A stretch of DNA of 58,660 bases, taken from NCBI GenBank assembly GCA_030263535.1, contig SZPB01000004.1:1-58660 (forward strand), given 5' to 3'. The notes below the pieces were generated by a model that was not told the origin of the DNA, did not search any database, and saw nothing but the letters and a program-made list of their open reading frames with translations. Positions 38,107-44,526 of this stretch are shown here, in pieces. The position numbers and the translations under genes are program-made. The stretch's first letter is position 1. Each line of letters starts with the position of its first letter. This DNA is from Cytophagia bacterium CHB2 (lineage in GTDB: Bacteria; Zhuqueibacterota; Zhuqueibacteria; Zhuqueibacterales; Zhuqueibacteraceae).

Positions 38107-38748
38107 CTTCGACAGGCGACTCGACCGAGACTTCTGCGTGAGCGCTCAGTCGAACGCTCGTCGAGGTCTCAGTCACCGCAGATGTTCAGCCACGGCTTGG
38201 CCGTGGCTTGACTACAGCAGATGCTACGGCCAAGCCGTGGCAGAGCAAACAGGTATTTTCGATTTTGACTATCAAATTTGATCAGCAAAACCCAAGCATC
38301 TGTCATCCAGAAAGGAATTTGTGAAGCATTCCGTGCAGCGCTCAGTGCTTGACAAGTTGACCCCAACGGGGTCCGATGCGGCAGCCCACGGGCAACGCCC
38401 TGGGAACTAATGGGGACTGTCACACAAAGCCCTGAAGGGGCTGGCAAATTTTGATAAATCGATTCCCAGGGCGTTGCCCGTGGCTTTCACATTATGCCCC
38501 GTTGGGGCAGTTATTGAGGCGTTGATCCCGCTTTCGGTATTCGTTCGAAAAGTCGCCATACTTGCGCTTTGCCGCTGATTTGCTATTTTGCGGGTAACAC
38601 ACAATGCTTTGGAAGTAAAAGTATCCAAAATGCTACTGCCCGGGCGCTCAGCCATGAAGCGTGTGCAAGACTAATAACCAACAGAATCGTTCATTGCAAA
38701 CCGCCCGGGCAGTTATCCGTTACTACTCAAAAAGGGCAGCAATCGTGG
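38107..38748. other. Gene-free repeat-rich stretch before the template repeat
   Basis: No gene is visible. It holds a palindromic 'CCACGGCTTGGCCGTGG' sequence (38190-38206) whose inverted partner is at 38226-38241. The solo palindromic element annotated separately at 38359-38509 follows. A 12-bp inverted pair, ACTGCCCGGGCG near 38634-38647 and CGCCCGGGCAGT at 38702-38713, comes next; the right arm recurs at 35838-35850 before the serine hydrolase gene. Confidence 0.6.
38359..38509. repeat. Solo palindromic element related to the transposase-flanking repeats
   Basis: Two inverted copies of one ~45-bp unit face each other: an outer ACCCCAACGGGGT-type palindrome (38359-38373 and 38495-38509), then GGGCAACGCCC (38390-38400) and its inverse (38469-38479), with a small AGCCCTGAAGGGGCT hairpin between (38428-38442). 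The same units in the same order flank the transposase at 42684-43380. This is a MITE/REP-like copy without its own enzyme. Confidence 0.8.
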
Positions 38749-38879
38749 GTTCGAACCGGGTGTTGCGCGGCGGGTCCTGGAACAACAATGCGCAGAACTG
38801 CCGTTCCGCGAATCGTAACTGGAACAGCCCCGACAACCGCAACAACAATATTGGCTTCCGCCTGGTTTTCCTCCCGTAG
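38749..38879 (+). repeat. DGR template repeat (TR)
   Basis: The sequence reads as the end of an FGE/C-type-lectin domain, 'GSNRVLRGGSWNNNAQNC' then an Asn-rich run, ending 'IGFRLVFLP' and TAG. It has no gene in front of it. Over the 116-bp core (38764-38879) it matches the 3' end of the NACHT-FGE gene (41801-41916) without gaps. There are 14 mismatches, and each lies at an adenine of this copy (14 of 27 adenines changed). Ten AAY codons sit where the target has Tyr, Asp, Gly or Ser. That one-sided adenine substitution is the hallmark of DGR mutagenic retrohoming, which makes this copy the template. Homology extends upstream to 38749 with two more adenine changes and two others. Confidence 0.92.
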
Positions 38880-39136
38880 CTCATAGGGTAAAGTCGGAGG
38901 ACTGCCTCTGAACAGATTGCTGTCCCGTTCGTCCGGCACGGGAGCGCGGACATTCCTGTCCGCGATAAACGTTGCGCGGACGACAAACAGCGGTGCAAAT
39001 GCCCGGTGCTGGTAGGGCAAATGGATTTTTGCTTCGAAAGCTCCGGGCATTGGTTTTGTTGGTATAAAAAAACGAAATTTTTATATTGAACATTCTCGGG
39101 TGTGTAAAATAGACAGATCATCGTACTGGGACAACC

Positions 39137-39601
39137 ATGAAAACCGAATCTCAGAAACCATTATTTCGCGTCTTTGTCAGTTCGACTTATATTGATTTAG
39201 TCGAGTACCGCAAGGCGGCGGAAAAAGCCATTAACGACCAGCGCCAAAAATATGAAGGCATGGAGTATCTGGGCGCGATGGATAAAGAGCCAACCAAAGC
39301 CTGCCTGGATTTGGTCGAAGACTGCAATCTTTTTATCGGCATTTATGCCTGGCGTTACGGCCATGTTTCGGACGGCGCTGAGATTTCCATCACCGAACTG
39401 GAATATCAACATGCGAAAAAACTGGACATTCCCTGCCTGTGCTATTTTGTGGACGAAGATTTTCCCTGGCTGAAGAAATTCATTGAGACCGGTGTTGCCG
39501 AAGAAAAGTTGAGCGGTTCAAAAGCCAAATTTCCAAAGAGCATGTGCGCACCAGTTTTAAAGAACCGCTGCATTTGGAAAGAAATATCATCAGTGACCTG
39601 A
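39137..39601 (+). pseudogene. DUF4062 N-terminal part of the DGR target, separated by a frameshift
   Basis: From ATG 39137 (GGGA upstream) the frame encodes a DUF4062 domain: 'FRVFVSSTYIDLVEYRKAAE', 'CLDLVEDCNLFIGIYAWRYG', 'SITELEYQHAKKLDIPCLCY'. It runs out of frame near 39508 and stops at 39601. After 39508 the continuing family sequence ('[19 protein letters not shown]') is in the frame of the following ORF. One base appears to be missing in 'AAGTTGAGCGG'; inserting a G would restore 'EEKLERFKSQI'. The original gene therefore was DUF4062-NACHT-FGE (39137-41916). Recent mutation, sequencing error or deliberate recoding cannot be told apart here. Confidence 0.85.
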
Positions 39602-41916
39602 GTAATTGGCTGGCAGATAACCGGCCCGGTCTGAAGCGAGAAGCGCTGAAACCGGGGCAGGATCCGGTCGCGATGTACAAAAAAGCCCTCGCAGAAAAAT
39701 ATGCCAGCTTGAACATGATTGGCTTCAAGCGCAGTTTTGCGATGGACAGCATCTATATTCCCTTGACCGTACACGTCGATCCCGAATTGCGTATTGTCGA
39801 CCAGGCTGGGGAACGGCTCGAAAAACTCGCAACGCGTTCACTTACAGCCGAAGATCTGCTGGAGCTTCCCAATAAAGCCGCGGTGGTTTTGGGCGAGCCG
39901 GGCATGGGCAAAACCACCATGCTGCATTATCTGGCGCGCCGGGAAAGCCAAAAGGCCGCGGCGCTTTTTCCCATTTTCGTGAAGCTGTCGGATTTTGGCA
40001 AAACCCGCGAGCCGCTGGAAAACTTTTTGCTCGCGGCGGTGGAAAATCATATCCCCGGCGCTACCATGCACGACGCCGCCCAAAATGCCATCGACACCCA
40101 ACATGCACTCATCTTGCTGGATGGCCTGGATGAAGTGAGCCGTGAGAAATATACTTCTGTGACCGAGCGGATTCGCGCTTTTGTGGCCGGCCATCAATAT
40201 TGCCGGGTGATCATCACCTCGCGCAAGGCCGGGTTTCAAAGCGATCAGACGCCGTATCGTCTTTTTGAAATCGACAAATTGCCCCTAGCGGAAATTGCCA
40301 ACTTCGTACACAAATGGTTTGAACAAAAAAACGACCTTGCCGGGCGCATTGCCGCCAATCGCCGGATTTACGAGCTGGCGCAGAATCCATTCTTGCTCTC
40401 CATTATCTGCTTCATCTTTGAAAAGTATCGTGACCTGCCGCAGCGCCGGTTGGAGCTTTATGAAAAATGCGCCGTCACCCTGCTGACGTTGTATGATGAG
40501 AAGCAGGTCGACAGAGTGAACGGCTTCACGCGGCTTCTGAAAGAGCGGGTGCTGGAAGATTTGGCGCATCACTTTTTCTGCAAGGAAGCGGAGGAGTTTG
40601 CTTATGCGCCGTTGATCGAGCAGGTGGCGCAGACCCTGGCCACAATGAAACGGAACGACAACGAGGAAGAGGTGCTGCGGGAAATCCGCGAAAACAGCGG
40701 GCTGCTGCAAAAAAGCGATGATCGCCATCTGTTTGTGCATCGCACCTTTTATGAATATTACGTCTCCTGCAAAATGCGCGGCGAGACGCCGGAAGCGGTG
40801 TTAGGCCGATCGACGCAATCGCGTTGGGAGGAACCCATTCGCCTGTACGCCGCGCAAATTCAAGCAGTAACCGAAGGCACCCACTTTATCAAGCAACTTT
40901 GGGAAAAAGATCGGGCCCTGGCTCTGCGTTGTTATCCGGACATGGATCGCGTGGTGGAACCTGATCTGATCAGAAATTTATTGAATGAAGCAAAGGTGGA
41001 AGAGCGCGTCGAGCTCGTGAAAGGCCTACCCGAAAAAATATCCGAGCCTGACAAGATCGTTGAAACTCTGCGTGAATTGTTTCGTTGGGAAACTAACGGC
41101 GAGGTAATTTATTGGGGCGCGCAGATTCTCGAAGCCAAAAAAGACACGCCCGGCGCATTGGAGATTGTCCGGCAAAAATTGGATGAGGGCGCGCGACAAC
41201 GTTATGAAGAATATCTGGCCAAAGACATGGCGCCTATTGCCGCGGGTCAATTCAAAATGGGAAGTCCTAAAAATGAAGCGGAGAGATTCGAAGATGAAAT
41301 CCAGCATCAAGTTAAAGTGGGAGATTTTTTGATCAGCCGTTATCAGATCACCAACCGGTTGTACGAGTTGTTTGACCCGAACCATCGCTCGCGGCGCGAT
41401 GAATATTCCGACCGAGACGAGCAGCCGGTGATTTATGTTAACTGGTATGAAGCCGTTATGTTCTGCCGCTGGCTGGGCTGCCGGTTGCCGACCGAAGCCC
41501 AGTGGGAATATGCCTGCCGCGCCGGAACGACGACACCGTTCAATACCGGCGAAAACCTGGCGACCGAGCAGGCAAATTACAACGGAAACTATCCGTATAA
41601 GAATTTTCCCAAAGGTAAATATTTGCAGAAAACCAAGCCGGTGGGCAGCTATCCGCCCAACGCGTGGGGGCTTCACGATATGCACGGCAATGTTTTTGAA
41701 TGGTGCCAGGATTGGTATGGCGAAAAATACTATGATGAATGCAAAAAGAAAGGCACTGTAGAAAATCCTACTGGGCCGGAAACTGGTTCTCGCCGGGTGA
41801 TGCGCGGCGGGTCCTGGTACGACTATGCGCAGAACTGCCGTTCCGCGGATCGTGACTGGGGCAGCCCCGACGGCCGCGACTACTCTGTTGGCTTCCGCCT
41901 GGTTTTCCTCCCGTAG
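39544..41916 (+). CDS. NACHT-family STAND NTPase with C-terminal FGE/SUMF1 domain, the DGR target protein (main part)
   Basis: The open part begins before GTG 39544 in the same frame (coding from ~39510) and ends at 41916; 790 aa from the GTG. NACHT NTPase: Walker A G117-EPGMGKT, Walker B '[11 protein letters not shown]' (189-199), 'RVIITSRK' sensor, and 'VHRTFYEYY' winged-helix-side motif. A helical arm follows. From residue 562 ('[14 protein letters not shown]') it is an FGE-sulfatase/SUMF1 (C-type lectin fold) domain with '[15 protein letters not shown]' and '[14 protein letters not shown]'. The last 38 residues are the DGR variable repeat. NACHT proteins of this build are STAND sensors, many anti-phage. 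The diversified lectin fold would be the ligand-binding face. It acts in the cytoplasm, as no signal peptide is seen. Confidence 0.9.
41801..41916 (+). repeat. DGR variable repeat (VR)
   Basis: The 3' end of the FGE domain, aligned without gaps to the template at 38764-38879 (offset 3037). Codon changes relative to the template: AAC to TAC, GAC, GGC; AAT to TAT, GAT, TCT; ATT to GTT. The protein '[20 protein letters not shown]' replaces an Asn-rich template. The final 27 bp up to TAG are identical, as expected of the initiation region for mutagenic homing (IMH). Confidence 0.92.
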
Positions 41917-42236
41917 TTCACCCTGTGAAATAGTGAATTTCTTATGTCTTATTTTTATGTTTATGTCCTTCAAAGCGAAACGGATAATCAGTTTTATACA
42001 GGGTATACGTCTGATATACGTAAGCGCTTAGAAGAACATAATGCCGGGCTTGTTCATTCAACAAAGAATCGAAAGCCTTTGAAATTGGTATATTTTGAAG
42101 GTTGTCTCAATCAACAAGATGCGACACATCGGGAAAAATACTTGAAAACAACTTACGGCAAAAGATACCTCAAGGAAAGGTTGAAGAATTATTTCACAGG
42201 GTAAAGTTGGCAGTTCCTTCCGGCTTTACCCTGTGA
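41917..42236 (+). mobile_element. GIY-YIG cassette inserted directly behind the variable repeat
   Basis: Near-perfect 16-bp inverted repeats bound the cassette (41917-41932 and 42190-42205, one mismatch), and TTCAC occurs at both edges (41917-41921, 42193-42197). Removing the insert gives TAGTTCACAGGGTAAAGTTGG, which aligns with TAGCTCATAGGGTAAAGTCGG right after the template repeat (38877-38897). The right edge also forms a 13-bp stem (42194-42206 with 42224-42236) that may end transcription. Confidence 0.65.
41944..42204 (+). CDS. Small GIY-YIG nuclease-domain protein
   Basis: An 86-aa single-domain protein: 'FYVYVLQSETDNQFYTGYT' supplies the GIY-YIG-type strands, 'DIRKRLEEHNAG' the catalytic Arg helix, and 'ATHREKYLKTTYGKRYLKER' the region with the metal-binding Glu. 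It belongs to the small stand-alone (UhbP/UPF0213-like) group that is often scattered through genomes of candidate phyla. It could promote its own spread by DNA nicking, or be a repair nuclease. It begins 28 bp after the target's stop codon. Confidence 0.88.
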   Translation: MSYFYVYVLQSETDNQFYTGYTSDIRKRLEEHNAGLVHSTKNRKPLKLVYFEGCLNQQDATHREKYLKTTYGKRYLKERLKNYFTG

Positions 42237-42414
42237 GCAGGCGAGTTGTTTGAGCGGAATGAACGAGGCGCGAGGGACGAGCGCCGAGTGAAATGGAGCG
42301 AGAACAACGAGTCCGTTTGTAAAGATCGTTTGTAGTAACGCCTTCAGGCGCTTAACTTGCGCCGAAGGCCCGACGCCTAAAGGCGAAACTACGAACTATT
42401 TTCAAAAAATAACC
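42205..42414. other. Gene-free repeat region between the cassette and the DGR accessory gene
   Basis: It holds the right stem of the cassette, a GC-rich segment (GCGAGGGACGAGCGCCGAGT near 42270) and a palindromic 'GTAACGCCTTCAGGCGCTT' unit (42334-42353) that recurs at 45628-45646 downstream of lexA. No coding signal is seen. Confidence 0.55.
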
Positions 42415-42678
42415 ATGCAAATCAAACTCTTCACCATCCCGGTCGGCGACAGCGGCGCGGCGCAGGAAGAAATGAACCGTTTCTTGCGGGGCAATAAGAT
42501 TTTGGAAGTGCAAAACCAGTTGATCAGCAACGAGAACGGCACGTATTGGTGCTTTTGCGTTCGTTACATTGAAAAGGCCTTTGCTCCAACGAACGAGCAC
42601 AAAGGCAAAGTGGATTACAAACAAATCCTCGACGAAGCCACGTTTAAGAAAATTTCGAAGAGTACGAGGCTATTTTAA
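42415..42678 (+). CDS. DGR accessory protein (HRDC-type family), truncated
   Basis: An 87-aa ORF whose sequence ('IKLFTIPVGDSG', 'EEMNRFLRGNKILEVQNQLI', 'GTYWCFCVRYIEKAF', 'KGKVDYKQILDE') matches the N-terminal domain I know from accessory proteins found next to DGR reverse transcriptases. In those proteins the domain is usually followed by an HRDC nucleic-acid-binding domain. Here the frame stops shortly after 'TFKKIS', and the palindromic transposase element begins 6 bp later. The HRDC part is therefore lost. The family match is from memory; its position between VR and RT remnant strongly supports it. Probably no longer functional. Confidence 0.7.
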   Translation: MQIKLFTIPVGDSGAAQEEMNRFLRGNKILEVQNQLISNENGTYWCFCVRYIEKAFAPTNEHKGKVDYKQILDEATFKKISKSTRLF

Positions 42679-42683
42679 AAACA

Positions 42684-43380
42684 GCCCCAAAGGGGCATCA
42701 TGTAAAAGCGAAGGGCAACGCCCTGGAGGATAAATCAATCAAAACGTTCCCAAGCCCCAACGGGGCGATATAGAAACCTCTTCAATCCCGTTATCATCAA
42801 TATTGGAAGGGAGTCGCCATGCCGCAAAGCCTTGCAAGCATTCCGGTGCACTGTATTTGGAGCACCAGGGACCGCCAGCCATTCATAAGCCAGGAAATTG
42901 AAAAAGAGCTATTCAGTTATATGGTCTCCATTTTTCGTGCCTATGAATCTCCGGCGCTGACAATCAATGGGACCGAAGATCATGTGCACAGTCTTACAAT
43001 ACCGTCGCGAAAAATTACAGTAGCCAAGCTCATAGAAGAAGTGAAAAAGAGTTCATCAAAATGGATCAAAACCAAAGGTGCGCTCTATAGGAGTTTCTAT
43101 TGGCAAAGTGGTTACGCAGCATTGGGAATAGGACAATCGAACATTGAGGCATTAAAAAGATATATCGCCAATCAGAAAGAACACCATCGCCAGAAAACAT
43201 TTCAGGAAGAGTACATCGAATTCCTGAAAAAATACAACATCGAATATGATGAGCGATATGTTTGGGACTAATGATATTCGCATAGATATTCTATTTCGCC
43301 CCGTTAGGGCTTTAGAAATCTGAGGTTGAATTCTTTCCAGGGCGTTGCCCTTCGCTATTACATGTTGCCCCGTTGGGGCA
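42684..43380 (+). mobile_element. REP-associated (RAYT) transposase element with inverted palindromic ends
   Basis: The left end (42684-42766) and right end (43297-43380) are inverted copies of one ~83-bp unit: a GCCCCAA(A/C)GGGGC palindrome, 'CATGTAA(A/T)AGCGAAG', GGGCAACGCCC, then another GCCC(C/T)AACGGGGC palindrome innermost. The transposase gene lies between. The element sits exactly where the 3' half of the DGR accessory gene and most of the reverse transcriptase should be. Confidence 0.85.
42819..43271 (+). CDS. REP-associated tyrosine transposase (IS200/IS605-related, Y1 HUH family)
   Basis: A 150-aa protein of typical length. It has 'VHCIWSTRDRQPFI' at the start, the HUH motif in 'GTEDHVHSL', 'KLIEEVKKSSSKWIKTKG', 'FYWQSGYAALGIGQ', and the catalytic Tyr in 'RYIANQKEHH'. 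Such enzymes cut and join single-stranded DNA at REP-like hairpins, and the matching palindromes lie on both sides. It is intact, so it could also have mobilised the solo element at 38359-38509. Confidence 0.93.
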   Translation: MPQSLASIPVHCIWSTRDRQPFISQEIEKELFSYMVSIFRAYESPALTINGTEDHVHSLTIPSRKITVAKLIEEVKKSSSKWIKTKGALYRSFYWQSGYAALGIGQSNIEALKRYIANQKEHHRQKTFQEEYIEFLKKYNIEYDERYVWD

Positions 43381-43424
43381 GAGGGGCGGGGGGCATTTCA
43401 GGCGGTTCACAAAAAACTGAAAAC

Positions 43425-43733
43425 ACGCTAAAATTAGCACTGAAGCCCGTCTGCTTGAATCGCAATGCGCACGGGCTTCCTTTTTTGGGGTACTTGCTGT
43501 ATCCTGGTCGCACACGCCTGGCGCAGCGCAGCCGGATTCGATTTCTCAAAAAATTGCGCGGTTATGAAGAAAATTTGATATTGGGTATTTGGACACAAAG
43601 CGAGTATCAAGCTCATGTGTTGCCGCTGATCGCGTTTACCGAGCATGCTGAAGCAAAAGAGTTTCGGAAAAAAGTGAACATCGGTAAAAGTGTGTTTGGG
43701 CAAAGTCGAACTTTCGCGCGACGATGGTTTTAA
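43425..43733 (+). pseudogene. C-terminal remnant of a DGR reverse transcriptase
   Basis: In one frame, from about 43425, the sequence reads 'LKLALKPVCLN', then 'HGLPFLGYLLYPGRTRL', 'RSRIRFLKKLRGYE' and 'PLIAFTEHAEAKEFRKK', stopping at 43733. This is the conserved tail of DGR-type (group II-related) reverse transcriptases: 'G.PFLG(Y/F)...P...RL..R...RF..KLR.YE' then 'L.AF..HA'. All polymerase motifs, including the catalytic YxDD, are absent. Upstream of 43410 the frame is only palindromic repeat DNA. The last ~15 codons run into a hairpin repeat. The recognition is by motif; a profile search would settle it. Confidence 0.75.
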
Positions 43734-43940: not shown

Positions 43941-44138
43941 ATGGAACAACTGACTATTGTTTTGCCGCCAGAGGTGGCGACTCAATTGAAATCGGCTGCA
44001 AAGAATTCTGGCGTGAAACCGGAAGATTTTTTGCTTGTCAGTCTACAAGAGAAGCTCGCCCAGATTGACACTGAATTTGTTGGAGCTATGAAGTATGTAC
44101 TCAAGAAGAACGCTGAATTATACAAACGTCTTGCGTAA
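43941..44138 (+). CDS. Small antitoxin-like protein upstream of a Doc homologue
   Basis: 65 aa from ATG 43941; an in-frame TTG at 43935 adds two residues. It starts with a short strand and helix ('LTIVLPPEVATQLKSAAKNS') of the ribbon-helix-helix kind, then 'VKPEDFLLVSLQEKL', and ends in a charged helix. Its stop overlaps the Doc start as TAATG, the usual coupling of antitoxin and toxin. DNA binding and toxin neutralisation are inferred from this arrangement. Confidence 0.75.
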   Translation: MEQLTIVLPPEVATQLKSAAKNSGVKPEDFLLVSLQEKLAQIDTEFVGAMKYVLKKNAELYKRLA

Positions 44139-44526
44139 TGAAATTTCTCAACATTTTTCAAATCTTGGAATTGCACAGACGTCTTCTTGATGAATTTGGA
44201 GGCATTTCCGGAGTGCGAGATTTTGGGGCCCTCGAATCTGCGCTTGCTCAACCGGAAATGACATTTGGAGGGGAAGGCTTATACCCCCCACGCTCATAGA
44301 CAAAGCAAGCGTGCTGGCATATTCACTCTGCATGAATCATCCGTTTATAGATGGCAACAAACGAGTCGCACACGGTGCAATGGAAATATTCCTTGTTCTC
44401 AATGGATTCGAGATCGACGCGGCTGTTCATGAACAGGAAGGACTTTTCCTCGATCTCGCCAGCGGCAAATTAAAGCGAGAAGATTTGGCAGACTGGCTTC
44501 AGAGAAGAATTGTACCATTATCATAA
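44138..44526 (+). pseudogene. Doc-type (death-on-curing, Fic-fold) toxin with a frameshift in a C6 tract
   Basis: From ATG 44138 the sequence encodes 'ILELHRRLLDEFGG', 'GVRDFGALESALAQPEMTFG' and 'GEGLYPP', then hits a stop just after a run of six C (44284-44289). The family continues in another frame with 'TLIDKASVLAYSLCMNHPF' and the Fic motif 'HPFIDGNKR', to 'LQRRIVPLS' at 44526. Four or seven C would restore the frame. Doc proteins phosphorylate elongation factor Tu. As written, no intact toxin is made, unless the tract slips. Confidence 0.85.

Follow-up and report, generated by a model that had tools for sequence, protein, structure and literature searches.

The window, a stretch of 58,660 nucleotides from Cytophagia bacterium CHB2, very probably holds the relic of a diversity-generating retroelement (DGR) of the HRDC-accessory type that has recently stopped homing, that now carries a frozen variable repeat (VR), and in whose deletion a transposase/REP system was involved. 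The target of the former DGR would have been a DUF4062-NACHT protein, of a conflict-system type, in which it diversified the C-terminal domain, FGE (C-type-lectin-like). Of the accessory and reverse transcriptase (RT) genes, only pieces are left on either side of an IS200-type transposase unit whose ends are REP-like, and an insertion separates the VR from the downstream complement of the template repeat (TR) flank. As no cDNA would be made in the absence of an RT, homing would have stopped recently and the VR would be frozen, with the transposase/REP system likely having taken part in the deletion. An intact DGR RT is lacking at the locus, where only residues 243–328 of 329 are left, so we regard it as a relic and not as an active DGR.

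The TR is intact (38748–38883, + strand, within a conserved TR RNA region that spans about 38729–38926 as a whole) and recurs with 86% identity and adenine-biased mismatches as the VR (41785–41920, + strand), located where the FGE domain of the target gene ends. This pair is real: 16 of the 19 differences between the full repeats fall on TR adenines, and in the core 14 of 27 adenines are changed compared with none of 89 other sites. Adenine-specific differences and a VR at the 3′ end of the target gene, both features of a DGR, are found here. The TR is 82–86% identical to TRs that follow intact RTs in other phyla, and it violates none of the 58 positions conserved among 52 intact TRs. Since the cores of TR and VR are clean outside adenines and no conserved TR position is broken, the last homing of this VR appears to have been recent. 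The TR is located upstream of the target and is the only one of the cassette; TRs usually lie behind the RT, and the window has nothing resembling one beyond the RT tail. A search elsewhere in the genome found no second VR for this TR. Further upstream, 38361–38515 contain REP-like palindromic units of the same family as those that flank the transposase gene.

The target gene (39137–41916, + strand; DUF4062, NACHT, and FGE domains by Pfam) is split into two ORFs (39137–39601 and 39544–41916) by a single-base frameshift near 39495–39502, between DUF4062 and NACHT, a site which three homologues (L171, L172, and L174) cross in one uninterrupted frame. As the sequence reads, the gene is broken by this frameshift, for which a sequencing error is a possible source. 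Directly behind the VR is an insertion with inverted ends of ~16 bp (41921–42205, + strand) that carries a GIY-YIG gene (41944–42204; E = 1.3e-17, Pfam); relatives do not have it, and their VR flank continues directly. The inverted ends of the insertion, TTCACCCTGTGAAATA and TATTTCACAGGGTAAA, resemble the adjacent pairing motif ACCCTGTGA. The frameshifted target, the GIY-YIG insertion, and the missing TR behind the RT are lesions beyond those that the sequence-only reading had described. Downstream of the cassette, the frame of a Fic/DOC-like gene (44138–44526) is also broken in the window (44138–44299 and 44311–44526), and the gene is intact in a genome of the same species (L022, 10602–10988, 128 aa).

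Both genes of the DGR machinery survive as fragments. The HRDC-type accessory gene (42415–42678, + strand) is truncated to codons 1–82 of ~157, judged by alignment to an intact relative; these residues are 74% identical to an intact 157-aa accessory (E = 2e-47), which assigns the fragment to the HRDC-accessory subtype, and the final five codons are foreign. In the intact protein the HRDC domain occupies residues 80–140 and, as residues past 82 are gone, it is absent from the window accessory, just as had been proposed. The overlap of the accessory with the start of the RT is likewise lost, and the assembly contains no second accessory. Beyond the transposase unit, a C-terminal RT remnant without the catalytic domain (43428–43733, + strand, with homology over 43428–43685) aligns to residues 243–328 of the 329-aa DGR RT of locus L052, with 65% identity (E = 1e-39), an affiliation with the HRDC subtype; Avd-type RTs are 31–41% identical to the L052 RT. 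Given that RVT_1 occupies residues 71–249 of that RT, ~74% of the protein is missing, including the catalytic core. These alignments bear out the earlier identification of the frame after the transposase as an RT C-terminus and the estimate that about three quarters of the RT was lost. Searches of the accessory and RT fragments against Pfam, NCBIfam, and PHROG gave nothing usable, and recognition of their homology therefore needed intact relatives. No relatives of the accessory were found among viral contigs, plasmids, and phages, nor any of the RT tail among viral contigs; an origin from a phage or plasmid is accordingly unsupported.

The two fragments are separated by a transposase unit (42679–43384, + strand), in which an IS200-type Y1 gene (42819–43271; Y1_Tnp, E = 4e-23, Pfam) lies between REP-like palindromic flanks (42684–42775 and 43289–43379) that are imperfect, inverted copies of each other. 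The protein passes the IS200/IS605 model (NF033573, 58.4 bits, cut-off 55, NCBIfam) and falls short of that for REP-associated tyrosine transposases (NF047646, 17 bits, cut-off 80, NCBIfam). Its genomic behavior is REP-like, as the transposase gene has one DNA copy and about 15 more copies of the palindromic unit lie elsewhere in the genome without the gene; a high-copy IS was rejected on account of the single-copy gene. In two related genomes (G009 and G011) this unit recurs with unchanged ends, embedded in other sequence. Judged by the spacing in L052, ~0.9 kb has been lost, with ~0.77 kb of other sequence now filling the gap. The sequence-only reading was right that both genes are broken at the transposase element, but a simple interruption does not describe the event, which is a deletion of ~0.9 kb replaced by the transposase unit. 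The position of the unit suggests that the transposase caused this deletion.

A second genome of the same species, whose locus flanks are 97.5–97.8% identical to the window, has lost the RT through a different deletion at the same locus, again with a REP-like palindrome at its end: its RT is cut to the last ~41 codons (the stretch shared with the window remnant), directly behind the palindrome GCCCCGTTGGGGC. This genome contains no accessory and no close copy of the window transposase; in place of the cassette, a TIR-Lcl_C gene lies between the shared flanks. The latter gene (DUF1566-like; L022, 9011–10024) is of a DGR-target type, and its last codons look frameshifted. Because the junctions in both strains lie at REP-like palindromes, the transposase and palindromes may have taken part in both deletions. 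In two further genomes of the genus the whole cassette is absent. The ancestor of the species probably had the cassette, and today the deletions of the two strains differ. The description of this case as a dated DGR death does not hold, as 0 of 89 non-adenine differences place the time since the last homing only within a bound of about 3.4% divergence. If the strain split had marked the end of homing, one would expect about 2.1 non-adenine differences; the chance of finding none is 0.12, which leaves the order of the deletion(s) and the split undecided.

The intact form of the locus, which the sequence-only reading had suggested seeking in relatives, was found. An alignment of three accessory sequences, run once over genome contigs, yielded 74 loci; most are from MAGs of Chlorobi and Bacteroidota, and KSB1 and Caldithrix are also represented. 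Over 50 of these share a layout in which a target with its VR is followed by the accessory, an RT that overlaps or abuts it, and the TR, often with a second target and VR behind; in most loci of this layout TR and VR differ at 10–22 adenines and at 0 of about 100 other sites. At L074 the order is TR, target, accessory, RT, and a degenerate TR, so the upstream TR of the window has a counterpart in a locus that still possesses an RT. There, the TR without an adjoining RT matches two VRs, and the TR behind the nearby RT is degenerate, breaking 14 of the 58 conserved positions. Other loci have lost the RT. In L117 (5252–5560) and L121 (3235–3553), accessory codons 1–32 and 1–35, respectively, are fused directly to the TR with the RT deleted, and TR and VR differ at 2/103 and 0/102 non-adenine sites; both belong to genomes of other phyla that contain other DGR-like RTs, among which none is of the HRDC type. 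The L068/L073 cassette has kept only RT residues 301–329 and the TR. As judged from these three cases, RT loss with TR retention is recurrent in the HRDC subtype. Whether such forms constitute a functional non-autonomous class was also considered, given their recurrence in L117, L121, L068/L073, and L074, but their mismatch counts (0–5) fail to separate recent death from service in trans.

Comparison of the intact loci revealed a further property of HRDC-type DGRs: ~18 nt behind the TR are complementary to sequence behind each VR, as seen in the window and in loci of the range L054–L121. TR flanks from 58 TR/VR pairs were scored, as reverse complements, against VR flanks: the score was 16.9 for the VR flank of the same pair, 9.5 for those of other loci, 5.9 for shuffled flanks, and 6.8 when the direct orientation was used instead. 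In 26 anchored pairs, 98.1% of cells are paired, a level inflated by the choice of the best match at a [GA]AG[CT] anchor and the omission of a few register-shifted pairs. Compensatory changes occur at 15 of 18 positions, the covariation score is 0.702 compared with 0.227 ± 0.020 in shuffles, and a slide by one column reduces pairing to 42–50%. When whole flanks were permuted among the same anchored pairs, 74% paired vs. 96% in the real arrangement; the flank pairs include related sequences and are not independent. No such pairing was detected in seven Avd-type loci. In the window, the TR 3′ flank (38879–38896, + strand, GCTCATAGGGTAAAGTCG) and its target-side partner (42221–42238, + strand, CGGCTTTACCCTGTGAGC), moved away from the VR by the GIY-YIG insertion, form 16 Watson-Crick pairs of 18, and 18 of 18 with wobble; this pair (inverted pair I12) carries a GGG/CCC co-change.

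We lean, with only modest confidence, towards the view that HRDC-type DGRs recognize their targets by base pairing between the RNA directly behind the TR (18–29 nt) and sequence 5–40 nt behind each VR, the two coevolving as a code separable from TR/VR homology, in place of the DNA hairpin of Bordetella phage BPP-1. Flank pairing would then guide homing; a stem for transcript processing is an alternative role. The mismatches suggest that the TR RNA pairs with the coding strand or with the target mRNA, in that U-G and G-T together number 56 and C-A and A-C 17, although a single position common to related loci accounts for many of the U-G cells. It is unlikely that the complementarity instead stems from a mobile accessory-RT-TR cassette with inverted ends. 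The two arms do bracket accessory, RT, and TR in the canonical layout, but the motif keeps its orientation at second VRs downstream of the TR (L058, L078, and L101), which indicates that it follows each VR and not the ends of a cassette, and the excess of U-G and G-T mismatches also argues against such ends.

The loss of function at the window locus could be read in two other ways. An improbable one, slightly more so than inverted cassette ends, is that the cassette is non-autonomous and not dead, and that an RT from another contig, or a cognate RT missing from the assembly, still copies its TR and rewrites its VR. Continuing service in trans would leave TR and VR as clean as they are, TRs without an RT recur (L117, L121, and the L074 TR that matches two VRs), and such service is documented elsewhere (PMC10907252). 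The earlier statement that the window has no other RT stands, as the three RVT_1 matches in the genome are all on contigs other than this one, and so does the absence of a cognate: neither an HRDC-type RT nor a second RT tail is present in the assembly, a draft of 681 contigs in which an RT could have gone unassembled. The genome does, however, encode two Avd-type DGR RTs, in C5 (G000:C5, L015, 8843–14100), an apparently intact DGR that combines bAvd and a NACHT-FGE target with a TR and VR of its own, and in C306 (G000:C306, L014), also apparently intact, with a protein named Avd-like by resemblance and a target named DUF1566-type, which we take to be equivalent to the Pfam entry Lcl_C of the sibling-strain gene. 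The third match, C288, shows no similarity to the HRDC-type RT. Because the C5 and C306 RTs belong to a different subtype (32–39% identical to the HRDC-type RT, with TR and VR flanks that do not pair), rescue by them in trans is unlikely; furthermore, with the target frame broken and the VR apart from its pairing partner, homing would be of little benefit. Thus, of the proposal that the VR is frozen unless an RT acts in trans, the RT loss is established and the freezing is probable. Least likely is that the RT loss is an assembly artifact or a minority structural variant, most cells retaining an intact cassette. The source is a fragmented draft, and intact and disrupted variants coexist in another species according to long reads (PMC10907252), yet the RT of the sibling strain is eroded at the same site via a different junction, and the transposase unit recurs, its ends unchanged, in two other genomes in other surroundings, which speaks against a random chimera.

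Erosion of DGRs by mobile elements has been described (Dore et al., 2024; PMC10907252). In Thiohalocapsa PB-PSB1, DGRs are eroded by transposons and MITE arrays, and some are served in trans or have intact variants (PMC10907252). As in the window, RTs there are replaced by repeat or mobile-element sequence, targets are of the NTPase/conflict type, and non-adenine TR/VR matching was used as a sign of past or trans activity; in contrast to the loci with a matching TR in trans or intact variants, the window assembly has no matching second TR or cognate RT, and its junctions are marked by REP-like palindromes and an IS200-type gene. The HRDC-type DGR of Treponema denticola (PMC4891356) resembles the subtype described here in its HRDC accessory overlapping the RT, its FGE-sulfatase-type targets, and strains with leftover targets and no RT, but those leftovers also lack a TR, whereas the window keeps TR, VR, and both broken genes. 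BPP-1 shares adenine-directed copying from TR to VR and a need for sequence behind the VR in target recognition, but uses a self-complementary DNA hairpin behind the VR and an Avd accessory (PMC3240598); its TR-flank/VR-flank complementarity, of only 9 nt, is within chance. REP-associated tyrosine transposases and REPINs (PMC3116915) likewise combine a single-copy Y1 gene with flanking palindromes dispersed alone in the genome, although the window protein passes the NCBIfam cut-off for IS200 and not that for REP_Tyr_transpos.

RT loss via mobile elements (PMC10907252) and leftover targets (PMC4891356) are therefore known already, and the new part appears to be the flank pairing, for which our literature search, which covered papers outside subscription, found no prior description. 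As an instance of DGR death, the window adds to a process already described. What sets it apart is how readily it can be read: TR, VR, and pieces of both genes are still there, and a genome of the same species has a different loss at the site. How DGRs find their targets, and how VRs far from a cassette are served, is only partly understood; the pairing code, if true, would make target finding testable and could serve to retarget DGRs in laboratory strains. In the window, the matched flank pair has been kept and the engine is gone.
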